NCBI GenBank assembly: GCA_003280025.1
Contig: QCGD01000012.1
Span: 1-44,251, forward strand
Origin: Prochlorococcus sp. AG-363-P06
GTDB lineage: Bacteria > Cyanobacteriota > Cyanobacteriia > PCC-6307 > Cyanobiaceae
DNA: 44,251 bases
Direction of reading: 5' to 3'
Of this stretch, positions 16,521 through 43,682 are shown piece by piece; the stretch's first letter is position 1, and each line of letters starts with the position of its first letter. The translations under genes and the position numbers were made by a program. A model generated the notes under the pieces. It worked only from the letters and a program-made list of their open reading frames with translations, did not search any database and had not been told where the DNA came from.

Positions 16521-17126
16521 ATGATAGTAATTGCAAATTATGGAGTAGGTAATCTTTACTCAGTAAAAAATATGTTAAAGAAGGCAGGAGCATCTGTAAA
16601 AATTTCTGCAGATCCTTCGGATATTTTATCTGCTGACAAATTATTATTGCCAGGTGTTGGAAATTATGATTATGGGATGCAAATGTTGAATAAATCAGGA
16701 TTGAGAGAAGCTATTGATAAATTTGCATTAGATTATAAAAGACCCATTTTAGGTATTTGTCTGGGTGCACAAATACTTGGTAAAAAAAGTGAAGAAGGGA
16801 CTGAGAAAGGACTTGGATGGTTAGATTTTGAATGCCTAAAATTTAAAAGTTCTGATAAATTTAAAATTCCAAATATGGGGTGGAGATCTATAAAGGTAAT
16901 AAAAGATTCTTTGATTTTTAATAATTTAGATGAAAAAGCAAGATTTTATTTTGTACATTCTTATTATATAAAATGCAACGAATCAAAAAATATCATAAGT
17001 ACAAGTGAATATTCAATAAATTTTTGTAGTGCAGTTAATAGTAATAATATATGGGGAACTCAATTTCATCCTGAAAAATCTTTAAGATATGGATTATCTT
17101 TGATGAAATCATTTGCAAATTTATAG
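16521..17126 (+). CDS. hisH: HisH-like glutaminase for sugar amidination
   Basis: Class I glutamine amidotransferase that releases ammonia from glutamine. The 201 residues carry the triad C80 (GICLGAQ), H183 and E185 (TQFHPEKS), and the oxyanion region PGVGNYDYGM. It is 5 bases before a HisF-like gene and then a WbpG-like gene. That trio is the known system of Pseudomonas and Campylobacter-type clusters, in which ammonia passes to the amidotransferase that turns an N-acetyl into an acetamidino group. It is therefore not expected to serve histidine synthesis. All catalytic residues look intact. Confidence 0.88.
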   Translation: MIVIANYGVGNLYSVKNMLKKAGASVKISADPSDILSADKLLLPGVGNYDYGMQMLNKSGLREAIDKFALDYKRPILGICLGAQILGKKSEEGTEKGLGWLDFECLKFKSSDKFKIPNMGWRSIKVIKDSLIFNNLDEKARFYFVHSYYIKCNESKNIISTSEYSINFCSAVNSNNIWGTQFHPEKSLRYGLSLMKSFANL

Positions 17127-17131
17127 ATTAG

Positions 17132-17899
17132 ATGAATATCCCTAGAATAATACCGATTTTACTCATAAAAGATAAAGGAGTTGTTAAAACTAAAAGATTT
17201 AAAAATCCAACTTATATTGGTGATCCAATAAATACAGTTAGGATATTTAATGAAAAAGAAGTTGATGAAATAATTATTTTAGATATTGAGGCTTCAAAAA
17301 ATTTTCAAGTTCCAAACTTCGAATTGCTAACTAGTATTGCAGCAGAAGCATTTATGCCTTTAGGTTATGGTGGTGGATTAAGCTCAATCGATCAAATAAA
17401 GAGAGTTTTTGAATTAGGATTTGAGAAGGTTATTATTAATTCTTCTACGTTTGGTAATTATAAACTAATTGAAGATGCGGTTAAGATTTTTGGCTCACAA
17501 AGTGTGGTTGGTTGTATTGATATAAAAAAATCACTATTTTCAAAAAGATATCTATATTCTCATGCTGGGAGAAAGAAACAAAAAATTAATATAGAAAAAC
17601 ATATTAATAATTTAATGAAAGCTGGAATTGGGGAATTAATAGTTCAATGCATTGATTTAGATGGAACAAGAAAGGGTTATGACTTTAATTTTCTTAATAA
17701 GATTTCAAAATCTATTCAGATACCCACTATTGGTTTAGGTGGGGCAAAAGATCTAAATAATATGCAATTTACATTTAATCAAACTGATTTATCTGCTTTA
17801 GCTGCAGGAAGTATATTTGTATATTTTGGTCCTCATAATGCAGTATTAATTAATTATCCAGAAAGAGAAGAAATTAATGAATTATTTTATAAAAGATAA
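17132..17899 (+). CDS. hisF: HisF-like ammonia-channel protein, cyclase residue lost
   Basis: A 255-residue (beta/alpha)8 barrel related to the cyclase subunit of imidazole glycerol phosphate synthase. The numbering matches Thermotoga HisF closely: the second catalytic aspartate is kept at D130 (GCIDIKK), but the first, Asp11, is Leu here (IIPILLIKDKG at 6-16). The phosphate loops remain (GYGGGLSS, GLGGAKD). It sits between HisH-like and WbpG-like genes, so the likely role is to dock the glutaminase and conduct ammonia to the sugar amidotransferase rather than to make imidazole glycerol phosphate. The symbol reflects homology, not histidine synthesis. Confidence 0.88.
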   Translation: MNIPRIIPILLIKDKGVVKTKRFKNPTYIGDPINTVRIFNEKEVDEIIILDIEASKNFQVPNFELLTSIAAEAFMPLGYGGGLSSIDQIKRVFELGFEKVIINSSTFGNYKLIEDAVKIFGSQSVVGCIDIKKSLFSKRYLYSHAGRKKQKINIEKHINNLMKAGIGELIVQCIDLDGTRKGYDFNFLNKISKSIQIPTIGLGGAKDLNNMQFTFNQTDLSALAAGSIFVYFGPHNAVLINYPEREEINELFYKR

Positions 17900-17950
17900 A
17901 TTTTAAAAATTTTGCAAATATGCAATAATGCAAAAGGATATGATTTAAAA

Positions 17951-19225
17951 ATGATACTAAAAAATCAGTCAAAAATTGTTCCAGCAGTAAGGATAACGGA
18001 TACAACAAATATTATAAAAAAGGCTGCTTTTGTAGATCCTAAAAAAAAATATAATATGTGCTCTAGGTGTGTAATGGATACTACTGATCCTGAGATTTCT
18101 TTTAATTCTAAAAATGTATGTAGTCATTGCCAATATTTCGATAAATTCATATCAGATAAAATTTTTGAAAATAAAGATAGAGATAAAGAGTTAAAAAAAA
18201 TAATTAAACAAATAAAACTATATGGAAGAAATAGAAAATATGACTGCATAATTGGACTTTCTGGTGGTGCAGATAGCTCTTTTGTTGCTTCTAAGATTCA
18301 TGATTGGGGATTAAAACCTCTTGTAGTGCATGTCGATGCAGGTTGGAATTCTGAGTTGGCAGTTAAAAATATAGAGAATATATGTAAAAGATTAAAATTA
18401 GATCTTGTTACACATATTGTTAATTGGGAAGACATTAAAAACCTACAAATTGCTTTTTTAAAATCTGGGGTAATTAATCAAGATACGCCGCAAGATCATG
18501 CTTTCTTTGCAGCCCTTTATCATTATGCGGTTAAGTCAAATATCAAATATATAATAAGTGGCGGTAATTTTGCTACTGAAAGCATTCTCCCAACTTCTTG
18601 GGGATATGATGCAATGGATGCAACACATATAAAATATATTTCTAAAACTTTTTCGAAAAAAAAATTAAACAATTTTCCAATAATTAATTTCTTCTCATAT
18701 TTTATAAATTACCCTTTTATTAGGAAAATGAAAGTTATAAGACCACTTGACTATATAAATTACAATAAAAAAGAAGCTATAAAAACTTTACAAAGAGAGT
18801 TTGATTGGAAATCCTATAGTGGAAAGCATTACGAATCACAATGGACAAAATTTTTTCAAGGCCATTATTTACCTTATAAATTTGGATATGACAAAAGAAA
18901 AGCTCATTTATCAAGTTTGATTTTATCAAAACAAATCACCAGAGAAGATGCAATAAAAGAATTAAATAAAGTTATTTATGAAGAGAAAAATTTAATTGTT
19001 GAAAAAGAATTTATAGCTAATAAATTAAATATTAACTTATCTGAATTAGATAATTTATTAAATAATAATTGTGTAGATTATACTTTATATCCTAACCATC
19101 AAAAAAAGCTAAAAATTTTTAAGAGATTAAAAAAATTTCTTATCTTAATAAATAATAAAATTGGAAATTTAATATTATCTTATAAGTTTTTATTAAAAGA
19201 TTCTTTATATACATTTAAAAGCTAA
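17951..19225 (+). CDS. wbpG: N-acetyl sugar amidotransferase (WbpG/PseA family)
   Basis: PP-loop ATP pyrophosphatase that adenylates an N-acetyl group of a nucleotide sugar and replaces its oxygen with ammonia, giving an acetamidino group. From the ATG at 17951 the protein has 424 residues: a zinc ribbon with C37/C40 and C57/C60 (MCSRCVMD, VCSHC), the PP-loop SGGADSS at 104-110, and the HVDAGWNSE and SGGNFATES motifs. The frame is open to a TTG at 17912, which I reject in favour of the first ATG. HisH- and HisF-like partners lie directly upstream. A second family member fused to its own glutaminase is at 40495. Confidence 0.9.
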   Translation: MILKNQSKIVPAVRITDTTNIIKKAAFVDPKKKYNMCSRCVMDTTDPEISFNSKNVCSHCQYFDKFISDKIFENKDRDKELKKIIKQIKLYGRNRKYDCIIGLSGGADSSFVASKIHDWGLKPLVVHVDAGWNSELAVKNIENICKRLKLDLVTHIVNWEDIKNLQIAFLKSGVINQDTPQDHAFFAALYHYAVKSNIKYIISGGNFATESILPTSWGYDAMDATHIKYISKTFSKKKLNNFPIINFFSYFINYPFIRKMKVIRPLDYINYNKKEAIKTLQREFDWKSYSGKHYESQWTKFFQGHYLPYKFGYDKRKAHLSSLILSKQITREDAIKELNKVIYEEKNLIVEKEFIANKLNINLSELDNLLNNNCVDYTLYPNHQKKLKIFKRLKKFLILINNKIGNLILSYKFLLKDSLYTFKS

Positions 19226-22363: not shown

Positions 22364-22432
22364 GTTAAAATTAAATGATTTGAAAACTTTATTTATTTAA
22401 TTTAGAGATTTTCACCTAATTAAAATTATTTT

Positions 22433-23709: not shown

Positions 23710-24699
23710 ATGGATATTAAGAATAAAAGATTTTTAGTTATTGGAGGAGCTGGTCTGATAGGCTCTCATACAGTTGAATTACTTCTTAAAGAAGATATTC
23801 GAGAAGTTGTTATATTTGATAATTTCACAAGAGGCAGAGAAGAAAATCTAACAGAAGCTTTAAAAGATAAAAGATGTAATATTTTTAATATTGGGGGAGA
23901 TATCTTACAAAAGGATATATTAGAAGAGGCAATGCAAGGAATTGATGGGGTCTTTCATTTGGCGGCTTTATGGTTACTTCAATGTCATCAATTTCCTGAA
24001 TCTGCATTTAATGTGAATGTAAGAGGAACTTTTAATGTTTTAGAGGCTTGTAGAAATAAGAATATAAATAGGCTCATATATTCTTCATCAGCCTCAGTCT
24101 ATGGAGATGCAGTTACTGAACCTATGGAAGAAACTCATGTTTTTAATAATAAAAATTTCTACGGAGCCACAAAAATTTGTGGAGAGGCAATGATTAGAGC
24201 TTATCATCACAGATATGGTCTAGATTATGCTGGTTTGAGATATATGAATGTTTATGGACCAAGGCAAGATTATAAAGGTGCTTATATCGCAGTAATAATG
24301 AAAATGTTGGATAGGATTGACATGGGGGAAAGACCCATAATTTATGGAGATGGATCAGAGGCTTTTGACTTTGTAGCAGTTGAAGATTGTGGCTATGCGA
24401 ATATATGTGCAATGAAATCTGAATCTACAGACTCCTTCTATAATGTAGGAACAGGAATAAGAACTTCTTTAAAGGAATTAGCAGAAATGATAATTGAAAT
24501 TACTGAGTCCAAAACAAATATTGAATATAGAGAAAGAGAACAAACTACATTTGTGAAGAATAGGATTGGTTCTCCTAAAAAAGCCAAGGAAGAGATAGGT
24601 TTTTCAGCAAAGATTAAACTAAGAGAGGGAATGAAGAAGCTTATCGAATGGCGGGAAAAGCATAAATCAGAAGTAAATTCAAGAAGACTTTCGCAATAA
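23710..24699 (+). CDS. NAD-dependent nucleotide-sugar epimerase/dehydratase
   Basis: A 329-residue short-chain dehydrogenase of the extended type. NAD-binding GGAGLIG is at 12-18, the active site has SSSASVYG and YGATK, and the substrate region includes RYMNVYGPRQDYKGAY. It resembles UDP-glucose or UDP-GlcNAc 4-epimerases and dehydratases, but I cannot choose between these. Its stop codon abuts the ATG of the aminotransferase, a common arrangement in which the epimerase or dehydratase feeds a keto sugar to the aminotransferase. Confidence 0.85.
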   Translation: MDIKNKRFLVIGGAGLIGSHTVELLLKEDIREVVIFDNFTRGREENLTEALKDKRCNIFNIGGDILQKDILEEAMQGIDGVFHLAALWLLQCHQFPESAFNVNVRGTFNVLEACRNKNINRLIYSSSASVYGDAVTEPMEETHVFNNKNFYGATKICGEAMIRAYHHRYGLDYAGLRYMNVYGPRQDYKGAYIAVIMKMLDRIDMGERPIIYGDGSEAFDFVAVEDCGYANICAMKSESTDSFYNVGTGIRTSLKELAEMIIEITESKTNIEYREREQTTFVKNRIGSPKKAKEEIGFSAKIKLREGMKKLIEWREKHKSEVNSRRLSQ

Positions 24700-25887
24700 A
24701 TGAAAATCCCAATCGCTAAAACAAATCTTAATGATTTTGAAAAGAACAGTGTTCTAGAACCCCTGAATAATGGATGGTTGGTTCAGGGTAAGAAAGTGAA
24801 AGAATTTGAAGATATGTGGTGTAATTTTACAAATGCTAAATATAGTATTGCTGTAACTAGCTGTACTACAGCTCTCCATCTTTCTTTAGCTGCATTAGGA
24901 TTTGGTCCTGAAGATGAAGCTATTGTTCCAGCTTTTACATGGATTTCAACTGCTAACGTGATTGAACATCTTGGTGGGAGAGTGATTTTTGCTGATATAG
25001 ATTTATCAACATTCAATATAAATTTAAAAAGTGTTGAGTCTCTTGTAACTAAAAATACAAAGGCGATTTTACCCGTACATCTTTTTGGCTTATCCGCCAA
25101 TATGAAGGAAGTTAATAGATTTGCAAAAGAAAATAATCTTTGGATTATAGAGGATGCTGCATGTGGGTTTGGCACTACCTATGATGGGCAACATGTAGGA
25201 ACTTTTGGAAATAGTGGATGTTTTAGCTTTCATCCAAGAAAAGCAATTACTACTGGTGAGGGAGGTATGATAACAACTAATGATGAAAACTTAGCATTAA
25301 AACTTCGTTGTCTTCGCGATCATGGAGCTTCAATTAGTGATCTTCAAAGACATCATGGGCCTAAACCATTTTTATTAGCCGATCATCCTGAAGCTGGATA
25401 TAACCAACGAATGACAGATATTCAAGCTGCACTAGGAGCAGCTCAGATGATAAGAGCCAAAGAGATTGTTGAGGAAAGACAAGATATTGCGAAAAACTAT
25501 GATTCATGTTTTAAAGATCTTTCTTGGCTAAGAATACCTTTCAGTAATCAACTTTATAAACATAGTTATCAGAGTTATCCATGTTTATTTGAGCCTGAAA
25601 AAGTTGAAGAAGCAATTAAAGAGAAAAACCTTAATTTACTTTCTGAGATAAGAAATTCTCGTAACTCATGGATGGAGGAATTACAAAATTGTGGTATTTC
25701 AACTCGGCCAGCAACGCACGCAGTCCATCAGTTGAGTTACTATAGAAATAAATATAACCTCAAGCCAGAACAATTCATAAGATCTTTTGCTGCAAGTGAA
25801 TGTAGTATTTCTTTGCCACTATTTCATGGTATGACAGAAAATGAGCAAGATTATGTAATTAAAACTGTACTTAGTCGAAATAAATAA
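24700..25887 (+). CDS. DegT/DnrJ/EryC1/StrS aminotransferase
   Basis: A 395-residue PLP enzyme that aminates a keto sugar nucleotide, usually with glutamate as donor. The PLP lysine is K181 in SFHPRKAITTGEGG. IEDAACGFGT holds the aspartate that contacts the pyridine nitrogen, and the N-terminal GWLVQGKKVKEFE and C-terminal TRPATHAVHQL are family-typical. It abuts the epimerase gene upstream and overlaps asnB by one base (TAATG). The product would be an amino sugar that the nearby formyltransferase or acyltransferases could use. Position of amination is unknown. Confidence 0.9.
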   Translation: MKIPIAKTNLNDFEKNSVLEPLNNGWLVQGKKVKEFEDMWCNFTNAKYSIAVTSCTTALHLSLAALGFGPEDEAIVPAFTWISTANVIEHLGGRVIFADIDLSTFNINLKSVESLVTKNTKAILPVHLFGLSANMKEVNRFAKENNLWIIEDAACGFGTTYDGQHVGTFGNSGCFSFHPRKAITTGEGGMITTNDENLALKLRCLRDHGASISDLQRHHGPKPFLLADHPEAGYNQRMTDIQAALGAAQMIRAKEIVEERQDIAKNYDSCFKDLSWLRIPFSNQLYKHSYQSYPCLFEPEKVEEAIKEKNLNLLSEIRNSRNSWMEELQNCGISTRPATHAVHQLSYYRNKYNLKPEQFIRSFAASECSISLPLFHGMTENEQDYVIKTVLSRNK

Positions 25888-27758
25888 TGTGCGGCATAAC
25901 CGGTCTTATTAAATTAAATGGAGATCTCGTTTCATCTGATGTCTTAAAAAAGATGATGAATGCAATTGCGCATAGAGGCCCTGATGGAGAAGGACAATGG
26001 ATTGAGGATTACATTGGTATAGGACATCGCCGTTTGGCAATTATTGATCCAAGTTCCGCAGGTCATCAACCAATGATTAGCCATGATAGTCGTTGGATAT
26101 TATCTTATAACGGTGAGATTTATAATTTTCGAGAACTTCGCACTGAACTAGAAGCTGAAGGAGTTATTTTTAAAAGTAAAACTGATAGCGAGGTTGTTTT
26201 GTATGCACTCGCAAAATGGGGAACTCAAGCCTTATTAAGATTCAATGGAATGTTTGCTTTAGCATTATGGGATAGAAATAAAAAAACTTTACTATTAGCA
26301 AGAGACCGTTATGGAATAAAACCTCTTTATTACACTCAACAAAATAGCTTCTTTTCTTTTGGTTCTGAACAAAAAGCAATTTTATCTATACCTGATTTTA
26401 AACTTAAGCTTAATAAACCAGCCTTGCTTGAATATTTCACATTTCAAAATATTTTTACTGATCAGACTCTCTCATGCGGTATTCATCTTCTTCAACCTGG
26501 CCATTTTCTAAAGTTTGATCTATCACAATCTAAAACAAATATTTTTAAATACTGGGATTATTCATTTAAAGATCCAGATTCTGTTGTTAATTCAGAAGAA
26601 TATATTGAAGAACTAGATAGATTATTTGCCCAAGCTGTAAATAGGCAATTAGTAAGTGATGTTGATTTAGGTACATATTTAAGCGGAGGTATAGATTCAG
26701 GTTCAATTACTGCTGTGGCAGCGATGCAAATTAATAATTTAAAAAGTTTTACTTGTGGATTTGATCTAAGTTCTGCATCAGGAATCGAACTTTCTTTTGA
26801 TGAACGTGTAAAAGCTGAAGCAATGTCCGCATTATTTAACACGGAACATTATCAAATGGTTTTGAAGGCAGGAGATATGGAAAGGTGTCTCCCTCAATTG
26901 GCTTGGCATTTAGAAGAGCCAAGGGTAGGACAGAGTTATCCAAATTATTATGCTGCACAATTAGCAAGTAAATTTGTAAAAGTTGTGCTTTCAGGTAGTG
27001 GAGGTGATGAATTGTTTGCAGGATATCCTTGGCGATATTTTGCTGCTCAGCCAGGACAATCTTTCGATCAATATATAGATAAATATTATTTATATTGGAA
27101 ACGCTTGCTGTCAAATTCAGAACTGAAAATATTATTAAAGCCAATATGGAATGATGTGAATCATGTCTGGACAAAAGATATTTTTAAGAGTATTTTTCCT
27201 GATCATGACACTTGCCCATCCAAACCAGAAGAGTTTATAAATTTATCATTATACTTTGAGGCAAAATCATTTTTGCATGGTCTTCTAGTTGTTGAAGATA
27301 AACTATCTATGGCACATAGTCTTGAGAACAGAGTTGTATTTTTGGATAATGATTTAGTCGATTTTGCTATGCGTTGTCCTATACATTTAAAACTAAATAA
27401 TCTCAAAAGAAAATTTAGAATAGATGAAAATGTACAATATGGTAAAGAACAACAATATTTCAAAAAAACAAATGATGGTAAATTAATTTTAAGGCAAATG
27501 GCATCAAAATATATTCCTAAAAATATTGTTCAATCTAAAAAGCAAGGATTCTCTTCTCCAGATGCAAGTTGGTTTAGAGGTAAAAGCATAGATTTTGTTA
27601 CCAATATTTGTAAAAATAAACAGTCACCTATTTTTGAATTTATTGATTTCAATGTTACACAAACATTAATATCGGAGCATATAAATGGTAAAAGTAATAG
27701 AAGGTTATTAATTTGGTCTATTTTAAATTTTAATGAATACTTAAAACATTTTCATTGA
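25887..27758 (+). CDS. asnB: Asparagine synthase-like glutamine amidotransferase
   Basis: A 623-residue protein with an N-terminal class II glutaminase domain (catalytic C2 in MCGITG, AHRGPDGEG, SYNGEIYN) and a C-terminal ATP pyrophosphatase domain (LSGGIDSGS at 265-273, SGSGGDELFAGYP). Both active sites look complete. In polysaccharide clusters such proteins (WbpS and WbtH are examples) are thought to turn uronic acids into uronamides, and this window also encodes two nucleotide-sugar dehydrogenases that make uronates. True asparagine synthesis is the alternative. It overlaps the aminotransferase stop by one base. Confidence 0.9.
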   Translation: MCGITGLIKLNGDLVSSDVLKKMMNAIAHRGPDGEGQWIEDYIGIGHRRLAIIDPSSAGHQPMISHDSRWILSYNGEIYNFRELRTELEAEGVIFKSKTDSEVVLYALAKWGTQALLRFNGMFALALWDRNKKTLLLARDRYGIKPLYYTQQNSFFSFGSEQKAILSIPDFKLKLNKPALLEYFTFQNIFTDQTLSCGIHLLQPGHFLKFDLSQSKTNIFKYWDYSFKDPDSVVNSEEYIEELDRLFAQAVNRQLVSDVDLGTYLSGGIDSGSITAVAAMQINNLKSFTCGFDLSSASGIELSFDERVKAEAMSALFNTEHYQMVLKAGDMERCLPQLAWHLEEPRVGQSYPNYYAAQLASKFVKVVLSGSGGDELFAGYPWRYFAAQPGQSFDQYIDKYYLYWKRLLSNSELKILLKPIWNDVNHVWTKDIFKSIFPDHDTCPSKPEEFINLSLYFEAKSFLHGLLVVEDKLSMAHSLENRVVFLDNDLVDFAMRCPIHLKLNNLKRKFRIDENVQYGKEQQYFKKTNDGKLILRQMASKYIPKNIVQSKKQGFSSPDASWFRGKSIDFVTNICKNKQSPIFEFIDFNVTQTLISEHINGKSNRRLLIWSILNFNEYLKHFH

Positions 27759-35659: not shown

Positions 35660-36766
35660 ATGGAAATAATAGAGAGAAAATTAATTAAGGTTGCTTTAAT
35701 AGGTTGCGGCAGGATCAGCAAGAATCATCTTAAATCAATATTGTTATACCCAGAATTATGTGAACTAAGAGCTATATGTGATTGCGATCCAAAAAGGATC
35801 GATGAAGCTAAATTATTAATAGATGATCATATAAAAGATAATCCAAAAACTTTTGAGCAACTACAGGAATACAATATTGAAGATGAATTATTTGATGACA
35901 TTAAGAATAAAAAAATTTATATTGATTTGGTCGTTTTGGCAACTCCCAGTGGACTCCATTCTAGGCAGGTAATATCCGCTGCAAAAGCAGGGGTTAATGT
36001 TTGCACAGAGAAGCCTATGGCTACAAAATGGGAAGATGGTTTAAAAATGTTAGAAGCATGCAAAAAAAATAAAGTTAAGCTTTTTGTTGTAAAACAGAAT
36101 CGTTTTAATAAAACTATAGATTTAGTTAGGCAGCAAATTCTAAATGGGAGATTTGGCAAAATAGGACTTGTTACAGTAAATGTTTTCTGGCAACGTCCTC
36201 AAAGTTATTATGATCAAGATGATTGGCGAGGCACTTTAGAACTTGATGGTGGAGCATTAATGAATCAAGCTAGTCACTATGTAGATCTACTTGAATGGAT
36301 GATTGGCCCAGTCGATAGTATTAATGCATCTATTGCAACAATTGCAAGAGATATAGAAGCTGAAGATACTGCTGCTATGAAAATCAAGTGGAAGAATGGT
36401 GCTCTTGGTACAATGTCAGTTACGATGATTGCCTACCCTCAAAATTTGGAAGGTTCAATTACTATTTTAGGTGAAAAAGGCTCTGTGAAGATAGGAGGAA
36501 AAGCTGTAAATAAAATTGAATTGTGGGAATTTAAAGATCCTCATAAAGATGATCAATTAGTTAGTAATGCCAGTTATGAAACTAGCAATGTTTATGGTTT
36601 TGGCCATCCAATATATTATGAAAATATGCTGAAATCACTTAAAGGTTTGTGTGAACCAATTTGTACTGGTGATGAAGGATTGAAAAGTTTGCAATTACTT
36701 ATTGCAGCATATAAATCTGCAAAATCAGAAAAAGATATTAAGCTGCCTCTTCCTAAAAAAATTTAA
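35660..36766 (+). CDS. wlbA: UDP-N-acetyl-2-amino-2-deoxyglucuronate 3-dehydrogenase (WlbA/WbpB family)
   Basis: A 368-residue Gfo/Idh/MocA oxidoreductase that oxidises C3 of UDP-GlcNAcA so that WbpE can aminate it. The NAD motif is ALIGCGRISKNH at about 13-24. EKPMATKWEDG holds the catalytic lysine, and VFWQRPQSYYDQDDWRGT with GGALMNQASHYVDLLEW closely matches WlbA. Members of this family recycle NADH by reducing 2-oxoglutarate, which would yield 2-hydroxyglutarate. The partners WbpA and WbpE are encoded on the other strand at 42363 and 43690. It converges with the aminotransferase at 36836. Confidence 0.9.
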   Translation: MEIIERKLIKVALIGCGRISKNHLKSILLYPELCELRAICDCDPKRIDEAKLLIDDHIKDNPKTFEQLQEYNIEDELFDDIKNKKIYIDLVVLATPSGLHSRQVISAAKAGVNVCTEKPMATKWEDGLKMLEACKKNKVKLFVVKQNRFNKTIDLVRQQILNGRFGKIGLVTVNVFWQRPQSYYDQDDWRGTLELDGGALMNQASHYVDLLEWMIGPVDSINASIATIARDIEAEDTAAMKIKWKNGALGTMSVTMIAYPQNLEGSITILGEKGSVKIGGKAVNKIELWEFKDPHKDDQLVSNASYETSNVYGFGHPIYYENMLKSLKGLCEPICTGDEGLKSLQLLIAAYKSAKSEKDIKLPLPKKI

Positions 36767-36810: not shown

Positions 36811-36840
36811 AATAAAAAGTAAAGTATAAAAACTTTTATT
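36811..36840. terminator. Possible bidirectional terminator between convergent genes
   Basis: AATAAAAAGT at 36811-36820 pairs with ACTTTTATT at 36832-36840, one base short of perfect, with an 11-base loop. It lies between the convergent wlbA and aminotransferase genes and overlaps the latter's stop. The stem is A/T-rich and weak. Confidence 0.35.
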
Positions 36841-38014
36841 TGCGAGCAAGATTTAATACTGAAATTATATTTGAGGTATAATTCAACATCACATCTTCAT
36901 CTATAGTTGGATGAACTAAAAATGTTAAATTAGTTTCTCCTAATTCATTAGCAATTAATAATTTTTTCTTTGAGGTTGAAATTTTTGATGAGAAACATTT
37001 CTCTAAATATAATTCACTGCAACTGCCTTGCAATGCAGGATAGCCTCTTTCAACAATTGCATTAATGATTTTATCTCTACTCCAATCGTCTTTAAGATAA
37101 TCTCGATTAATAAAGCAATTAAATTTGTACCAACCATGAACCATATCTTTTTCAGGAATTGGTGCTCTTATGAGAGGATCTTTAGATAAAAAATTATATA
37201 ACAAGAGTGCATTTTTCGTTCTTATTTTTGTCCATAAATCAAGTTTGCAAAGTTGTATTCTGCCTATTGCACTTTGCATTTCAGTTATTCTAAAATTTGA
37301 ACCCAAGTTATCATGAATATATTTATATCCCTTTTTTAAGTCTTTCTTTTCTAGTTTGGTAAAAGATTTGCCATGATCTTTAAAAGATCTTATTTTGTTA
37401 AAGTAATTTTTATTATTTGTTGTTACCATTCCTCCCTCACCTCCAGTTGATATTATTTTGTCTTGACAGAAGCTCCAAGTACTAATATCCCCAAATTGAC
37501 CAACAGAGAATTTTACTCCGTCGATCAAAATACCCGCTCCATGTGCTTGAGAGCAGTCTTCAATTAAGGCAATATTATAAGTTTTTGCTAAATTTGAAAT
37601 CTTTATCATATCTGCTGGCCATCCCGCTAGATGAACAACAACTATTGCTTTAGTTTTTTTTGTTATCAAAGGTTCAATACTTTCTGCTGTTATATTTCCT
37701 GAATTTTTATCAACTTCGGCAAAAATAGGTATCCCCCCCAGCAAAGAAGCACTACTGGCTGTTGCTACAAATGTTCTTGGTGTTGTAATTATCTCATCAT
37801 CTTTTTTTATACCAATAGCCAAATATGCGCATGAAAGTGCTAATGATCCATTCGCAACTGCGATAGCAAATTTACAATTACAAAATTTAGCGAATTCTTC
37901 TTCAAAATTTTTAGTTACTGATCCTGTCCAGAAATTTACTTCGCCAGATCTTAGGACTCTCTCAACCTCTTTAATTTCATCTTCTTCGTATTTTGGCCAT
38001 TTTGGGAAATTCAT
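36836..38014 (-). CDS. DegT/DnrJ/EryC1/StrS aminotransferase
   Basis: A 392-residue PLP-dependent sugar aminotransferase. The PLP lysine is K186 in SFCQDKIISTGGEGG, and IEDCSQAHGA provides the pyridine-contacting acidic residue. It opens FPKWPKYEEDEIKEVERVL and has VNFWTGSVTKNFEEEFA. It lies 2 bases after a PglD-like acetyltransferase and close to a PglC-like transferase, so a PglE-type role (4-amination toward bacillosamine) is plausible. However, the sequence is not a close PglE match to my eye, and no PglF dehydratase is in the window. Confidence 0.85.
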   Translation of the reverse strand: MNFPKWPKYEEDEIKEVERVLRSGEVNFWTGSVTKNFEEEFAKFCNCKFAIAVANGSLALSCAYLAIGIKKDDEIITTPRTFVATASSASLLGGIPIFAEVDKNSGNITAESIEPLITKKTKAIVVVHLAGWPADMIKISNLAKTYNIALIEDCSQAHGAGILIDGVKFSVGQFGDISTWSFCQDKIISTGGEGGMVTTNNKNYFNKIRSFKDHGKSFTKLEKKDLKKGYKYIHDNLGSNFRITEMQSAIGRIQLCKLDLWTKIRTKNALLLYNFLSKDPLIRAPIPEKDMVHGWYKFNCFINRDYLKDDWSRDKIINAIVERGYPALQGSCSELYLEKCFSSKISTSKKKLLIANELGETNLTFLVHPTIDEDVMLNYTSNIISVLNLARK

Positions 38015-38016
38015 TT

Positions 38017-38667
38017 TTATTCTTTTTCTTTAACTACATTTATAGGACTTCCAAAAACATTTAAATTTTTTGGTATGTCCTTCAAAACTAATGAACCTCC
38101 ACCAACTGTAACATTATCTCCAATTTGAACGTTTTGTATTATTTGGGATCCAATACCGATCCAACATAATTTACCAATATTTACATTTCCGGCAACATTA
38201 ACACCTGGTGATATATGAGTACCTTCTCCAATTATTGAATCATGATCAATTGTGCATGAAGTATTTAATATAGATCCAAATTGTATTTTGGCATTGCATT
38301 GAATTACAACATTAGTATTAATAAAACAACCTCTTTCTATTTTTGCATATCTAGAAACTTCAGCTGAAGGATCAATAATTATAGGAATTATAAAATTTAA
38401 CTTTATTATTTCTTTTAGCAATTTAATTCGAATTTTATTATCGCCAATGCCAACAAAAGCATAAGAATATTCTTTAGAAAATTTCTCAAGATTTTCTCTA
38501 GAAATATCTCCGATTAATTTTTTAGAATTCATTTCTTTTGAAAATTTATTATTTAAAAATTTTTTATCTAGAAATGAAATTTCTTCAAATTTATTGCATT
38601 TTTCAGCAACATCAGCAATTACTTTGCCATGGCCACCAGAACCAAGAATTAGAAGTTTCTTATTCAA
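38017..38667 (-). CDS. pglD: PglD/NeuD-like sugar acetyltransferase
   Basis: A 216-residue left-handed beta-helix acetyltransferase. The N-terminal Rossmann-like domain opens LLILGSGGHGKVIADVAEK. Hexapeptide repeats run from about residue 100 to 205 (INTNVVIQCNAKIQFG, DHDSIIGEGTHISPG, VQIGDNVTVGGGS), including the catalytic histidine candidate in TIDHDS. PglD acetylates the 4-amine of UDP-4-amino-bacillosamine precursors; NeuD-like relatives act on sialic acids. The flanking aminotransferase and PglC-like genes favour the PglD role. Confidence 0.85.
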   Translation of the reverse strand: MNKKLLILGSGGHGKVIADVAEKCNKFEEISFLDKKFLNNKFSKEMNSKKLIGDISRENLEKFSKEYSYAFVGIGDNKIRIKLLKEIIKLNFIIPIIIDPSAEVSRYAKIERGCFINTNVVIQCNAKIQFGSILNTSCTIDHDSIIGEGTHISPGVNVAGNVNIGKLCWIGIGSQIIQNVQIGDNVTVGGGSLVLKDIPKNLNVFGSPINVVKEKE

Positions 38668-38673
38668 AACAAA

Positions 38674-39282
38674 TTATTTATGATGGCCTTTAAAGGGTTT
38701 GACATGTTTATTATTTTTTGAATTAATTCCTTCTCTTTTAATAACTTTAAAGATTGTTAAAAGAAAAATTTTTAGATCTAGTATAAGAGAAAGATTATTT
38801 ACATATAAAATATCATATTCGAATTTCTTTTCCCAAGATATATTATTTCTTCCATTTACTTGTGCTAAGCCTGTTAAACCTGGTTTAACATCATGTCTTT
38901 TTCTCTCTTCATCAGAATAAAAACTTAAATACTCATGTAAAAGTGGTCTTGGTCCAACGAAACTCATTTCACCTTTAATTATATTTATCAACGTAGGTAT
39001 TTCATCAATAGATGTTTCTCTTAACCATCTTCCAAATCTTGTTAACCTAATATCATCATTTAGAAGTTTTCCAAAATCATCTTTTTTATTATTCATTGTT
39101 CTGAACTTAATTATATAAAAAACTTTTTCTTTAAATCCCGGTCTTTTTTGGAGAAAAAATATAGGACTACCTAATTTTATTTTTATTAATATTGAGATAA
39201 TAATTATTAATGGACTTGTAATAATTAATCCGCAAATTGCAAAAAAAAGATCAAAAAAGTACTTTAATTTTAAATAGAACAT
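38674..39282 (-). CDS. pglC: Initiating phosphoglycosyl transferase (PglC/WbaP-C type)
   Basis: A 202-residue monotopic phosphoglycosyl transferase that moves a sugar-1-phosphate to undecaprenyl phosphate, the first committed membrane step. One N-terminal re-entrant hydrophobic segment (residues about 8-36) is followed by FYIIKFRTMN, the catalytic Asp-Glu pair in ETSIDEIPTLINII, SFVGPRPLLHEY and KPGLTGLAQVNGRN. It has no N-terminal extension, so it is the short PglC form. It abuts the WbuB-like glycosyltransferase gene and precedes the pglD-like gene by 6 bases. Confidence 0.9.
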   Translation of the reverse strand: MFYLKLKYFFDLFFAICGLIITSPLIIIISILIKIKLGSPIFFLQKRPGFKEKVFYIIKFRTMNNKKDDFGKLLNDDIRLTRFGRWLRETSIDEIPTLINIIKGEMSFVGPRPLLHEYLSFYSDEERKRHDVKPGLTGLAQVNGRNNISWEKKFEYDILYVNNLSLILDLKIFLLTIFKVIKREGINSKNNKHVKPFKGHHK

Positions 39283-40491
39283 TTAGGTTTTTTTTAAAAT
39301 TATTTCCGACAAAGAATTGCTTATTTTTTCATAAGATCTGTTTTTTAAAATCCATTTTTTGCCTTTATCTCCAATATTTAATCTTTCTTCTTTTGACATC
39401 CTTTGATATTTTAAAATTTTATTTATAAGTTCATTTCTATCGTCTGGCATTACAAACTCACCACAGCCAGATTCATTAATCATTGTTTTATAACCATTAT
39501 ATGATCCTATAATTGGACTACCTGAAAGCATATAGTCAATCAATTTATTTAATGATTGACCATATTGCCATATTTTTGAATTATGAGTACTAAAGTAAAG
39601 TAAATCGCAAAATGACATTAAAGAATGAATAAATTTTTTTTCTATTAGGGGAAGGAAAGTTACATTACTTAAGTATTTTGTATTAGCGTAATATTTACTT
39701 TTCAAATCGCCATCACCAGCGATTATAAAGTGAATATCTTTATTCTTTTCTAGTTTATGAATAGAATCAAAAAAAGAATTTAATGCATTTGATATACCTA
39801 TCCCACCAAAATAACCAACTATAAATTTGGCACTAGGTATTTGAAGTTCTATACTTTTCTTTATTTTTCTTGATTCAATTATATCGTTATTAGAAAATCC
39901 AATCGGAATACATGAAACTTCTTTTGAAAAACCTAAAGTGGTTTTAACATGTTCCTTTAAATTAGGCATTGTTCCGATGATATGGTCTGAATATTTATAT
40001 CCAATAAATTCAATAAATTTAAGAAAGATTACTAGTGGATTTTTGTTGCTATACCCTCCTTCCTCTGTAAGAGTTAAAGGCCATATATCTCTGACTTCGA
40101 AAAACAATTTACAGGAATATTTTTTTTTCAAAATCAAACCATTTATTATTGTTAGTAGAGAAAGACTTGAAACTATAACAACGTCAGGCTTGGATAATTT
40201 TTTTTTATTAAGAAGAATTAGCTTAATCTCAAAATCTATCCAACTCAAGACTCTTGTAATAGAGTTTGATTTTTTGTATTGATATGAATCTAAGTAAATA
40301 TATGAAAAATTTTTTCTGATATTTAAGATAAGCTTTTTAAAAGAATTACTATATTTAAAGGGATATGAAGAAATTATTGTGCATTTAAAACCTTTCTTTG
40401 AAAGCTCATCTAATAAGAAAAATCCTCTTGAACCACTATTCCCTACATAAGATGTCTTTACATATTTTGAGATATACCAAATTGATTTCAT
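39283..40491 (-). CDS. Glycosyltransferase, WbuB-like (GT4)
   Basis: A 402-residue GT-B enzyme. It opens SIWYISKYVKTSYVGNSGSR and has FFEVRDIWPLTLTEEGG and IPIGFSNND. The donor domain has VGYFGGIGISNALNSFFDSI, IIAGDGDLKSKY and MLSGSPIIGS. The layout is like WbuB, which adds L-FucNAc as an early residue of O-antigen units. Its position beside the initiating PglC-like gene supports a role in adding the second sugar. It ends where the pglC-like gene begins, with no gap. Confidence 0.83.
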   Translation of the reverse strand: MKSIWYISKYVKTSYVGNSGSRGFFLLDELSKKGFKCTIISSYPFKYSNSFKKLILNIRKNFSYIYLDSYQYKKSNSITRVLSWIDFEIKLILLNKKKLSKPDVVIVSSLSLLTIINGLILKKKYSCKLFFEVRDIWPLTLTEEGGYSNKNPLVIFLKFIEFIGYKYSDHIIGTMPNLKEHVKTTLGFSKEVSCIPIGFSNNDIIESRKIKKSIELQIPSAKFIVGYFGGIGISNALNSFFDSIHKLEKNKDIHFIIAGDGDLKSKYYANTKYLSNVTFLPLIEKKFIHSLMSFCDLLYFSTHNSKIWQYGQSLNKLIDYMLSGSPIIGSYNGYKTMINESGCGEFVMPDDRNELINKILKYQRMSKEERLNIGDKGKKWILKNRSYEKISNSLSEIILKKT

Positions 40492-40494
40492 ATC

Positions 40495-42330
40495 TTAAAA
40501 AATAGGCTTTATATTGTTGACTACTTTTATTACTTCTTCATAATCCATTCCAATTGCATCAAGATACCATTTAATATTAGGAAATCTTGGTAAGTTCTCT
40601 TTTTCTATCAAAGCTATTGCTTCTTTTCTTGATATGTCTCCCTCTCTAATTTGATTACTTCGAAACGTATCATGTTCAGTGAAACCAGCTAATTTATAGT
40701 AAATATAATTATAAAAAGCAGCAGTACCATCTCCTATTCTCCATGTGGTTGAGGTGTCAGGTGCTAATTCCCAGTCGTATTTATCAATTAGAGTATTGTT
40801 TATTTCATTTTCATCCCATTTCCAATAGTCATATAAATGAAAATAATCTGCCTTCTTTTTGAAACTTCTAAAATATTCTCCAGTAAAAGTATCTATTAAA
40901 GATGTATTTAGATAAGAAGGGTTCTTTATGATTTGCTTAAATCTTAATTTCTGATATTTTAGTTGCTTTAAAATTCCATGACTATATACTCTTTTTTCTT
41001 CAAAATCTGGCTTTACTCCAAGAAAACCTGACTTGAAATGAGTAACCTCTAATGGATTTATTCCCCAAATATTCAACTTAATATTAGTTTGCGTTTTTAC
41101 AGATTCAATATGTTGAAAAAAATGTTTATCTCCTGCAGTAAGCAAACTTATCATTCCAAGATGTGGAGATTTTAACCAGGCCTCTAGATTCATTTTTATA
41201 TTTTTTCTTTTATTTTGAATATTTGCAGCGACAATAATATTTTCTACACCAAGAATAGAAGACATTCTACTTATGTTCCTTCTACCAAGATCTGTAACCA
41301 TTCCCCAGTCATAGGTATATGTAATAGGTTTTAAGCCTAATTCCTTTACAATGATATGAAGTGCATAGCAACTGTCCCTTCCTCCTGAAAATGGCACTAT
41401 GCAGTTTTCTCCTGTTTTATTTAAGTAATTTTTTAGTAAGTTAGTTAATTCCTTCTTTGGTTTTGGCTTATTTCTGATTTTATAATTTTTGCAGTAATTA
41501 CAAACATTATTTTTATCAAAAGATATAAAAGGCATCGTCTCTGGTAAAACACATTTTGAACATCTTTTTAAATTATTTTTATTATGTTGCAGTAATTTTT
41601 CTTGGGACAATGATGTACCTAATTTTGGAATTAGATTTAATCTTTTGGAATTATTCTCAATTAAAATTGGCTCTTTAATAATTTTAGGAATATCAATTAA
41701 TTTTCCTTTCTCTCTAATTTGGGAAATATTATCACATAAAAGTTTTTCTAAAATATATTTTTCTGAGGTAAAAATTAATTGGTTATTTTTTTTCCCTATA
41801 TGCAAACTACCATTATTAGAGAATAATAGAAGCTTTCCTAATTTAGGAAGCATAATTGCGCAAGCAATAGTACCTCTAGTATATTCTTGAATATTTTTAA
41901 ATATATTTTTGTAATTAATTGTTTTAGACGATTCTTTATTTGCGATTAAGTTTTTTTCAACTATACCTGCTATGGCTTCGGTATCTATTTTTAAGTTAGG
42001 TTTGAGTTCGATTTTATCCCAAACTTCATCACGATTTACAATTATACCGTTATGAATTACATAAATAGATTCTCTTTTTACTGGTTGATTCTCTTTAAGG
42101 CTATTAGTAATCAATCTGCTATGTCCAATAATAAAATTTGTTTTATTAAAATTTGAAAGGTTAATTAAGTTGGTTAAGGATTTATCTGATCTTTTTAGAT
42201 ATATATTTTCATCGCTATTAAACAAAATACCACTAGAATCCAAACCCCTTCTTTCAGCATCTTTAGATATTAACAATAGATCTCTCGTGGAGATTTTTTG
42301 TTTTGATATTATTCCTATGATGCCACACAT
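40495..42330 (-). CDS. Fusion: class II glutaminase + WbpG-like sugar amidotransferase
   Basis: A 611-residue two-domain protein. Residues 1-about 200 form an Ntn-type glutaminase: C2 (MCGIIGI), AERRGLDSSG, GHSRLITN, HNGIIVN and DTEAIAG, much as in GlmS. Residues about 255-600 are a WbpG/PseA-type sugar amidotransferase: a zinc ribbon with C257/C260 and C277/C280, the PP-loop SGGRDS at 315-320, then YTYDWGMVTDLG and the typical tail. One chain can thus make ammonia and use it, doing the work of the HisH/HisF/WbpG trio at 16521-19225. It lies 3 bases before the WbuB-like gene and 32 bases after wbpA. Confidence 0.9.
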   Translation of the reverse strand: MCGIIGIISKQKISTRDLLLISKDAERRGLDSSGILFNSDENIYLKRSDKSLTNLINLSNFNKTNFIIGHSRLITNSLKENQPVKRESIYVIHNGIIVNRDEVWDKIELKPNLKIDTEAIAGIVEKNLIANKESSKTINYKNIFKNIQEYTRGTIACAIMLPKLGKLLLFSNNGSLHIGKKNNQLIFTSEKYILEKLLCDNISQIREKGKLIDIPKIIKEPILIENNSKRLNLIPKLGTSLSQEKLLQHNKNNLKRCSKCVLPETMPFISFDKNNVCNYCKNYKIRNKPKPKKELTNLLKNYLNKTGENCIVPFSGGRDSCYALHIIVKELGLKPITYTYDWGMVTDLGRRNISRMSSILGVENIIVAANIQNKRKNIKMNLEAWLKSPHLGMISLLTAGDKHFFQHIESVKTQTNIKLNIWGINPLEVTHFKSGFLGVKPDFEEKRVYSHGILKQLKYQKLRFKQIIKNPSYLNTSLIDTFTGEYFRSFKKKADYFHLYDYWKWDENEINNTLIDKYDWELAPDTSTTWRIGDGTAAFYNYIYYKLAGFTEHDTFRSNQIREGDISRKEAIALIEKENLPRFPNIKWYLDAIGMDYEEVIKVVNNIKPIF

Positions 42331-42362: not shown

Positions 42363-43682
42363 TTATCCTCTTATTATATTATTCGATGGATAAAATCTTC
42401 CTCGTGTATCAATTATTATTTTGCTGTATTTCTCTATTAATTCATAGTCAAAGTTATCATGATCAGAAGCTAGTATTACTGCATCAAAACTAGAAAGGCT
42501 TTCTTTTGTTAAATTAATACCTTTTAAATCAAAATTAAAGCGTCTTGTTTTAGGTAGGACCTCAAAAAAAGGATCGCAAAACTCAACTTTAGCTTCTTTC
42601 TTATTCAATAAATGAATGATATCTAATGAGGGAGATTCGCGAATATCATCTACGTTTTTTTTATAGCTAATACCCAAAACAAGGATTTTACTATTCTTTA
42701 GAGGTTTACCATATTTATTAAGGGCATTCGAGGTCTGGCTTATTACGTAGCTTGGCATCGAAGAGTTTATTTCTCCAGCAAGTTCTATAAATCTTGTATG
42801 CATCCCATATTCTCTGGCCTTCCAAGTTAAATAAAATGGATCAATAGGTATACAATGACCACCTAGGCCTGGGCCTGGATAATATGGTACAAATCCGAAT
42901 GGCTTTGTAGATGCAGCTCTTATAACTTCATACAAATCAATACCCATTTTCTCAGCAAGTGGTTTTAATTCATTCATGAGGCCAATATTCACAGCTCTAT
43001 GGATATTTTCTAAAAGTTTAGTCATCTCTGCTGTTGCAGTATCACTAACTTCAACAACCTCATTCACTACTTGTTCGTATAATGCAAGTCCTATCTTATT
43101 ACAGTTAGAAGTTGTTCCTCCGAGTACTTTTGGGATATTGCCTGTATGAAAACTATTATTTCCAGGGTCCTCCCTTTCTGGAGAATAAACTAAAAAGAAA
43201 TCTTCTCCAATATTAAAACCAAGATTTTTAATAAAAGGATGCAGTTCTTCTTGAGTTGTTCCTGGATAAGTTGTACTCTCTAAACTTAAAACTTGCCCTT
43301 TTTTGAGATGTTGACCTATCGAATTCAGCGTACTTCTTATAAAACTTAAATCAGGTTCTCTATATTTATTAAGAGGGGTTGGTAGGCAAAGAATTATTGC
43401 ATCTAAGGCTTTAACTTCATTGAAATTGTTTGTTGCTTTTAGTAAATTTGACTCTACTAAGATTTTCAACTTTTCACTCGAAATATGGTTGATATAACTA
43501 GTTGCATTGTTTATTTTATTTATCTTGTTTTTATCAATATCTATTCCCAAAACTTTAAAACCTGTTTCTGCATAAGCAATCGCAAGGGGTAATCCTACAT
43601 AACCCATGCCAATGATTCCAATAGTGGCTTTCTTATCTTTTAGTAAATTTAAAAGCTTTGTGAATGAATTTGTTGATTCCAT
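42363..43682 (-). CDS. wbpA: UDP-N-acetyl-D-glucosamine 6-dehydrogenase
   Basis: Oxidises UDP-GlcNAc to UDP-GlcNAcA with NAD. The 439 residues carry GMGYVG at 25-30, the central CLPTPLNKYREPDLS, ESTTYPGTTQEEL, SPEREDPGN and the catalytic cysteine in GPGLGGHCIPIDPFYL, which is diagnostic of WbpA over Ugd. It lies 7 bases after wbpE on the same strand, and the C3 dehydrogenase of the pathway is at 35660. Together they explain UDP-2-acetamido-3-amino-glucuronate synthesis. The WbpD acetyltransferase and WbpI epimerase are not visible in the window. Confidence 0.94.
   Translation of the reverse strand: MESTNSFTKLLNLLKDKKATIGIIGMGYVGLPLAIAYAETGFKVLGIDIDKNKINKINNATSYINHISSEKLKILVESNLLKATNNFNEVKALDAIILCLPTPLNKYREPDLSFIRSTLNSIGQHLKKGQVLSLESTTYPGTTQEELHPFIKNLGFNIGEDFFLVYSPEREDPGNNSFHTGNIPKVLGGTTSNCNKIGLALYEQVVNEVVEVSDTATAEMTKLLENIHRAVNIGLMNELKPLAEKMGIDLYEVIRAASTKPFGFVPYYPGPGLGGHCIPIDPFYLTWKAREYGMHTRFIELAGEINSSMPSYVISQTSNALNKYGKPLKNSKILVLGISYKKNVDDIRESPSLDIIHLLNKKEAKVEFCDPFFEVLPKTRRFNFDLKGINLTKESLSSFDAVILASDHDNFDYELIEKYSKIIIDTRGRFYPSNNIIRG

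Follow-up and report, generated by a model that had tools for sequence, protein, structure and literature searches.

A one-chain glutaminase/NASAT-type amidotransferase of Prochlorococcus, its association with the Wbp sugar pathway and its candidate role in making an acetamidino sugar

In the present study we have analysed a contig of Prochlorococcus sp. AG-363-P06 (QCGD01000012.1, 44251 bases, hereafter the window), and in particular a gene on its reverse strand that encodes, in a single uninterrupted frame from ATG to stop, a protein of 611 residues with a glutaminase half and a sugar amidotransferase half (hereafter the fusion). The gene is flanked by those for a WbpB and a WbpA-like dehydrogenase and by a partial WbpE gene, inside which the contig ends, and the gene directly downstream encodes a GT4-type glycosyltransferase (GTb); the coordinates are collected in Table 1. 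A previous reading of the letters alone (the sequence-only reading) had described the protein as an intact glutaminase of the N-terminal nucleophile (Ntn) type joined to a zinc-ribbon PP-loop amidotransferase of the WbpG/PseA type, encoded in the same window as a split, three-protein version.

The catalytic residues of the GlmS glutaminase are a Cys right after the initiator Met, together with an Arg, an Asn-Gly pair and an Asp. Profile searches and the conservation of Cys2, Asn94-Gly95 and Asp116 agree with the claim of an intact Ntn glutaminase: residues 1-196 match the NCBIfam GlmS models (E 1.9e-18), and the N-terminal half matches Pfam GATase_7 with 27.8 bits against a cut-off of 25, GATase_6 also matching but under its Pfam cut-off. 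The domain was thus found through the GlmS and GATase_7 models; GATase_2, the family named by the sequence-only reading, gave no match in the Pfam profile search of the fusion protein. Residues 255-604 match the NCBIfam model TIGR03573 (WbuX) with an E-value of 7.2e-44, and in the PDB this half matches the Legionella NASAT 8wex (E 5.5e-12). Both NASAT motifs given in the motif passage of PMC10607449, the tetracysteine CXXCXn[GN]XCXXC and the PP-loop SGGXDS, are present.

An AlphaFold2 model built from 52 sequences (pLDDT 87.8, pTM 0.87) superposes over residues 2-215 on the GlmS glutaminase 1xff (Z 21.7, 3.0 Å, 206 residues) and over residues 251-611 on the NASAT 8wex (Z 21.7, 4.5 Å, 322 residues). 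The fusion contains both folds and their motifs; the PP-loop fold of the second half is retained, and the zinc-ribbon character assigned to it beforehand stands in motifs and fold, its WbpG/PseA type being qualified by a profile score considered below. Asparagine synthetase structures compared with the whole chain give TM-scores of only 0.26-0.28 by query length, so that the domain placing of AsnB cannot be assumed for the fusion. No closer two-domain structure is present among the fold-search matches listed, which by itself shows nothing.

A scan of one genome per species gave 255 relatives. The locus counts that follow rest on the best 80 of these, of which 55 loci have at least 19 kb; their genes were labelled by BLAST with a small set of reference proteins (those of E. 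coli, Agrobacterium and the window, and a few locus proteins), so that the absence of a label is a soft result. For counts at genome level 50 of the 80 genomes were taken, with preference for isolates. The best 80 relatives all align from residue 1 to at least residue 600, are 83% identical to the window fusion in one Prochlorococcus locus and 54-60% in the others, and span more than 10 phylum labels, some of them of metagenome bins that are possibly misplaced. Two bins labelled Brevundimonas and Bryobacterales (L069 and L070) carry identical fusion C-halves, and at least one of them is therefore probably contaminated. Cys2, Arg72, Asn94-Gly95 and Asp116 are kept in all 81 alignment rows that have the N-half, and C277/C280 and SGGRDS at 315-320 in all 83; the zinc ligands C257/C260 are present in 82 of the 83, the exception being a row that starts later. 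Of the two rows that lack the N-half, one comes from a frameshifted contig and the other is a C-half from a viral-listed contig. Since the fused layout is conserved in 80 loci a chance fusion is excluded, and a decayed one is likewise ruled out by the conservation across the aligned rows.

All of the 52 members scanned match both the WbuX and the GlmS models. The best TIGR03573 E-value among them (1.1e-44) is barely better than that of the window protein, from which we infer that no member reaches the cut-off of that model; judged by sequence, the fusions may be filed as a separate family homologous to NASAT/TIGR03573. In the tree of C-halves 83 fusions, three distant fusions and one stand-alone viral-listed copy fall on one side (SH-aLRT 100) and 27 classical NASAT rows, one duplicate included, on the opposite one, in a tree with long branches and an inner order that is not reliable. 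The fusions form one group apart from the classical NASATs. Furthermore, with the sister clade described below left out, distances among N-halves correlate with those among C-halves (r 0.82; 0 of 2000 permutations as high), which shows that the two halves are inherited together. Mean identity is 77% among C-halves and 53% among N-halves, and this much stronger conservation of the C-half suggests one fixed acceptor.

Within the groups searched, the gene is rare. It was full length in 1 of 60 relatives in one of them; in the genus to which the Pseudoalteromonas locus belongs 3 of 108 genomes have it, in that of the Vibrio locus 3 of 227 (one of them, G374, of the sister clade), and in the family of a Curvibacter genome (G071), which we take to be Burkholderiaceae, 5 of 349 plus one of sister type. 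A DNA search of 5426 E. coli genomes found it in two, each from chicken. Such patchy spread together with high conservation would be the pattern of horizontally moved surface-sugar genes. The sister clade (L114, L130, L131) consists of longer fusions of 640-654 residues, 35-39% identical over the full length, with neighbours of Wbp type in L130 and L131 and AsnB genes in L114; its member on a Solidesulfovibrio plasmid is annotated as 7-cyano-7-deazaguanine synthase. The annotated main-clade records examined carry the names glucosamine 6-phosphate synthetase or hypothetical protein.

The surroundings of the gene connect it with a defined sugar pathway. At least one Wbp gene, under strict identity limits, lies within 9 kb in 41 of the 80 loci, and the neighbouring genes indicate the Wbp pathway to UDP-2,3-diacetamido-2,3-dideoxy-uronic acid. 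In two related loci (L027 and L143) the gene order is WbpD-WbpE-WbpA-fusion-glycosyltransferase-PglC-PglD-PglE, followed by WbpB on the other strand; in the genome of the window the end of a different contig matches WbpD. WbpD (E <= 1e-60) occurs in 41 of the 50 genomes with a fusion, as against 110 of the 349 in the G071 family (Fisher p 1.6e-11), a comparison of groups that are unmatched by phylum and have three genomes in common, and which speaks of association only. Within the 349 genomes themselves, WbpD is present in 4 of the 5 with a fusion and in 106 of the 344 others (p 0.036). The fusion family is associated with the Wbp pathway.

A further setting is the O-antigen locus of E. coli Z1323CEC0003 (L115; NZ_CP148493.1, 1964788-1998581), located between galF and gnd. 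Its annotated order starts with a Gfo/Idh/MocA protein, a TviB dehydrogenase, an acyltransferase and a DegT aminotransferase, equivalent to WbpB-A-D-E, and continues with a flippase-type protein, a polymerase, a glycosyltransferase, a 2-epimerase (WbpI), the fusion and a glycosyltransferase. Four of the five Wbp-type proteins were compared to the PDB, with E-values of 6e-88 to 4e-177: WbpB matches 3q2i, which we take to be WlbA, WbpD the acetyltransferase 3mqg, WbpE the WbpE structure 3nyu and WbpI the UDP-2,3-diacetamido-glucuronate 2-epimerase 8sxv. No HisF2, NASAT or AsnB is annotated in this locus. With a Wbp pathway and the fusion as the only annotated amidotransferase, HisF2 and a NASAT appear to be unneeded there, and if an acetamidino group is present, the fusion would be its natural source. 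The his operon near the cluster encodes ordinary HisH and HisF, and HisH of histidine synthesis might still help the fusion, though the latter has its own glutaminase. Eight more loci, among the 55 with at least 19 kb, have at least three Wbp genes and, within 9 kb, the fusion as the sole gene labelled as an amidotransferase.

The E. coli cluster resembles the E. albertii O1 cluster, compared by its description only, in a 5' transposase with CTCTG repeats and a central transposase. In a title of Zheng et al. from 2017 (Carbohydr. Res. 446-447:28), the E. albertii O1 antigen is said to resemble that of P. aeruginosa O5. A passage of PMC10622841 cites the O antigen of E. albertii as one with ManNAc3NAcA, and the P. 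aeruginosa O5 unit is given as FucNAc, ManNAc3NAcA and its 3-acetimidoylamino analogue in a passage of PMC5701251.

A GTb-like gene directly follows the fusion in 47 of the 76 loci with room for one, with 25-58% identity to that of E. coli, and is present anywhere in the locus in 61 of 80; in a group of Chryseobacterium and other loci a different gene lies directly downstream (7 loci were left out by gene picking). Among the 349 genomes of the G071 family the transferase, at 43-52% identity, is present in precisely those five that have a full main-clade fusion, and in all five it adjoins the fusion with PglC behind it, once separated by a gap of about 0.9 kb. The sole other match in these genomes, at 33%, follows WbpI, and the genome with the sister-type fusion (G575) gave no transferase match. 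Three of the five genomes were already known from the species scan, one of them as the centre of the family search; without those three the coincidence is 2 of 2 (p 1.7e-5). Thus, in one bacterial family the fusion coincides with an adjoining transferase, and the GT4-type enzyme is likely its partner.

We propose that the fusion serves the Wbp sugar pathway as a self-sufficient amidotransferase dependent on glutamine. After the loss of Met1, the nucleophile Cys2 of the Ntn domain would release ammonia from glutamine, and the ammonia would move within the chain, through a putative internal channel, to the C-terminal zinc/PP-loop domain, where the acceptor on a UDP-2,3-diacetamido-2,3-dideoxy-uronic acid would be activated with ATP; HisH and HisF2 would thereby become dispensable. 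The product may then be passed to the transferase encoded directly downstream, which in this presumed order of steps would link it to the lipid-linked first sugar, the product of PglC/D/E here and the host's own in E. coli. The acceptor would most likely be the 3-N-acetyl group, leading to a 3-acetamidino sugar, as with WbpG, the characterised NASAT that forms a C-3 acetamidino group according to a passage of PMC10607449. We regard this proposal as a whole as evenly poised between right and wrong, and the C-3 acetamidine, the product which we prefer, as having roughly an even chance. A still wider statement, to which we give slightly less than even credence, is that the family represents a one-protein acetamidine synthase, the first case of a sugar amidino group made without HisH/HisF2 by an Ntn glutaminase and a NASAT domain, forming with its dedicated transferase an "amidinate and transfer" cassette across many phyla and viral-listed contigs.

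Several observations weigh against this proposal. The TIGR03573 score of the fusion, 150.6 bits, lies under the curated cut-off of 203.2, and its C-half is 22-34% identical to classical NASATs over the aligned parts and separated from them by one long branch. Activity, ligand or mutant data were found for no family member. No WbpD match at 1e-60 is seen in 9 of the 50 fusion genomes, comprising five Actinomycetota with homologues of 38-42% at weaker E-values, one with a partial match and three with none. The pairing with the transferase is not universal, as only the above 47 of 76 loci have it directly behind the fusion, and among the sister fusions L130 and L114 have no GTb match and L131 a non-adjacent one of 31%. 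Nor is the transferase present in the 20 fusion-free genomes of the G071 family whose HisF2 exceeds its cut-off, a hint that the fusion makes something other than the product of those classical systems. The likeness of the E. coli locus to the E. albertii O1 cluster is one of description, and its CTCTG array has 8.4 copies of a rotated unit versus 11-73 reported for E. albertii O1. Finally, WbpI is not seen within 9 kb in 7 of the 8 Wbp-rich loci that have the fusion only, and natural 2,3-diamino-glucuronamides exist, as discussed below.

The strongest alternative keeps the same pathway and the same partner, and takes the C-6 carboxylate as the acceptor; the fusion would then be a uronamide synthase, converting GlcNAc3NAcA to GlcNAc3NAcAN and doing the job of AsnB/WbpS with a NASAT-type domain. 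The change in mass, 0.984 Da, is identical for amidine and uronamide. The O-polysaccharides of P. rubra and V. vulnificus are described in passages of PMC3210612 as containing 2,3-diamino-glucuronamides as well as an acetamidino sugar, and P. gingivalis makes such a glucuronamide by means of the AsnB-type WbpS (PMC7468200); a VimE-type deacetylase, as in the P. gingivalis Wbp/Vim pathway, is found at 30% identity or more in 11 of the 80 loci. The scarcity of WbpI just mentioned points to a gluco sugar, and the classical amidine genes that 24 of the 80 loci contain would be non-redundant if the fusion made an amide. On the other hand, the C-half has the NASAT fold, an AsnB-type enzyme is already present in 20 of the 80 loci, and the E. 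albertii O1 antigen has been likened, by title, to that of P. aeruginosa O5, bearer of an acetamidino group. The identity of the fusion as an AsnB was itself rejected for want of an Asn-synthase domain: this Pfam family gave no match among the 52 members at E 0.01. The NCBIfam AsnB model TIGR01536 does, over an unspecified range of residues, match 46 of the 52 at E <= 1e-5. The uronamide is a serious possibility, somewhat short of an even chance.

A further question is raised by the presence, at 16521-19225 of the window, of a split system for which profiles confirm HisH, AglZ/HisF2 and WbuX, as the sequence-only reading had it; also as stated there, the glutaminase folds are unrelated, the fusion having the Ntn (class II) and HisH the class I type. 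That reading held that both systems do the same job, and offered two explanations, namely that one glycan carries two distinct sugars of the amidino or amide kind, or that a swap is under way. A classical NASAT or HisF2 gene occurs within 9 kb of the fusion in 24 of the 80 loci, with HisH, HisF2 and NASAT together in 14; an AsnB-type enzyme occurs in 20, together with classical genes in 3, and neither kind in 39, loci cut by contig ends being counted. HisF2 scores over its cut-off in 16 of the 50 genomes with a fusion (in 18 it exceeds 300 bits) versus 22 of 349 genomes of the G071 family, phyla being unmatched, and within the 349 in 2 of 5 fusion genomes versus 20 of 344 others (p 0.034), one of the two being the centre of the family search. 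Since the pairing recurs and the transferase is a separate one, two products are likelier than a swap, and the former of the two readings is the better one.

That both systems give the same product, one replacing the other, is suggested by the homology of their synthetase domains, by their presence in one window and by the three NASAT-family genes of this genome, the third of which encodes another classical NASAT (309 bits) and lies on the 6-kb contig C19 (G000:C19:4940-5971; L142 4910-6070). We consider this very improbable, as both systems appear intact in the window and recur together at the frequencies just given, the fusions form one conserved group, and the transferase is missing from the 20 HisF2-bearing genomes without a fusion, an absence that also leaves the "same job" unsupported. 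That the protein is a GlmS-type enzyme, as its GlmS-like N-half and the name glucosamine 6-phosphate synthetase, given in two records of E. coli and in one of an Agrobacterium plasmid, would have it, is refuted by its domain content and can hardly be credited, because the GlmS models cover residues 1-196 only, residues 251-611 have the NASAT fold, and no Pfam match to a sugar isomerase half was found in the window fusion or the 52 members.

The glycan region of the window contains, in addition to the fusion and the classical trio, an AsnB-type enzyme that had been missing from the earlier picture, with two genes near it that are listed in Table 1. A PglK-like ABC transporter followed by an L-2-hydroxyglutarate oxidase-type gene is located at 20582-23692 on the forward strand.

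Table 1. Features of the window and of the fusion protein
Feature	Position	Strand	Evidence
One-chain glutaminase/NASAT-type amidotransferase, 611 aa	40495..42330	-	open reading frame, profiles, structures, alignment, model
N-terminal Ntn (class II) glutaminase domain, residues 1-215; nucleophile Cys2, R72, N94-G95, D116	41686..42330	-	profiles, alignment, 1xff match
C-terminal NASAT-type domain, residues 251-611	40498..41580	-	profiles, 8wex match
Zinc motif CXXC-Xn-[GN]XCXXC, C257 C260 C277 C280	41491..41562	-	alignment; definition in motif passage of PMC10607449
PP-loop SGGRDS, residues 315-320	41371..41388	-	alignment; definition in motif passage of PMC10607449
GT4-type glycosyltransferase (GTb), likely partner of adjoining fusion	39283..40491	-	profile, neighbourhood comparisons
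PglC-like sugar-phosphate transferase (Bac_transf)	38674..39282	-	PF02397, 211.8 bits
PglD/NeuD-type sugar acetyltransferase	38017..38667	-	TIGR03570, 200 bits, cut-off 160.8
DegT-family aminotransferase, termed PglE-like	36836..38014	-	profiles, BLAST
WbpB-like dehydrogenase	35660..36766	+	52% to E. coli locus WbpB; PDB 3q2k, E 1.3e-122
Nucleotide-sugar dehydrogenase, WbpA-like	42363..43682	-	TIGR03026, 429.4 bits; 32% to E. coli locus WbpA
WbpE-like aminotransferase, cut by contig end	43690..44250	-	45% over 180 residues to E. coli locus WbpE; contig 44251 bases
HisH-type class I glutaminase, classical system	16521..17126	+	profile search
AglZ/HisF2 acetamidino modification protein	17132..17899	+	NF038364, 325.6 bits, cut-off 310
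Classical NASAT (WbuX/WbpG type)	17912..19225	+	TIGR03573, 292.4 bits, cut-off 203.2
GalE/LegB-like epimerase or dehydratase near AsnB-type gene	23710-24699		
PseC-like aminotransferase beside AsnB-type gene	24700-25887		
AsnB-type amidotransferase (TIGR01536, TIGR03108-like), additional glutamine-dependent enzyme of glycan region	25887-27758	+	

A phage origin of the fusion found no support: there was no match among 50,697 phage records. In IMG/VR two contigs have a full fusion gene, one a stand-alone C-half and three distant NASAT relatives only. The two full fusions (L024/L107 and L025/L108) are 55% identical to that of the window and lie beside genes resembling surface or sugar enzymes. 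On the first of these contigs, which is viral as listed by IMG/VR, a reading of two flanking genes as portal and protease was unsupported in PHROGs and Pfam for both and in the phage records for the first gene; on the other contig type a neighbour is like phage GDP-mannose dehydratases (276 of the 50,697 phage records), which points weakly to a virus. The stand-alone C-half (L109, 9001-10113, on a 119-kb contig; 370 residues, 64% identical) groups with the fusions and may thus have lost its glutaminase half.

The fusion family is widespread, and a description of a one-chain NASAT did not turn up in the open-licence literature that was searched, subscription papers lying outside the search; NASATs and glutaminases are each known on their own, as are one-chain enzymes making uronamides (WbpS). 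The protein offers a compact enzyme for the study of the little-explored NASAT chemistry, that is, ATP-dependent activation of the acceptor and ammonia transfer, without HisH/HisF, and loci with the fusion only are a clean case for deciding between amide and amidine. Furthermore, the gene flags clusters whose surface sugars can be predicted to bear extra nitrogen, and in Prochlorococcus such sugars may be phage targets.

In comparison with known systems, the fusion is like the NASATs of the WbpG-WbuX-PseA family (TIGR03573; solved member 8WEX) in its C-terminal fold, its SGGXDS PP-loop, its tetracysteine zinc motif and its setting in sugar clusters, but differs from the classical ones by a built-in Ntn glutaminase in place of HisH and HisF2 and, often, by a downstream transferase of its own. 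With WbpS/WbqG, AsnB-type uronamide synthases and relatives of TIGR03108, it shares the arrangement of an Ntn glutaminase followed by a PP-loop synthetase in one chain, and the same kind of sugar pathways; this layout, usual for the AsnB-type uronamide makers, had not entered the earlier picture, yet the synthetase half of the fusion is NASAT-like with a zinc ribbon and contains no Asn-synthase domain. Residues 2-215 have the fold and catalytic residues of the GlmS/PurF glutaminase domains, without the isomerase or phosphoribosyl-transferase half of those enzymes. Lastly, the E. coli locus, with WbpA, B, D, E and I, is like the Wbp cluster of P. aeruginosa O5; in the latter WbpG works with HisH2/HisF2, whereas the E. 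coli locus has the fusion only.

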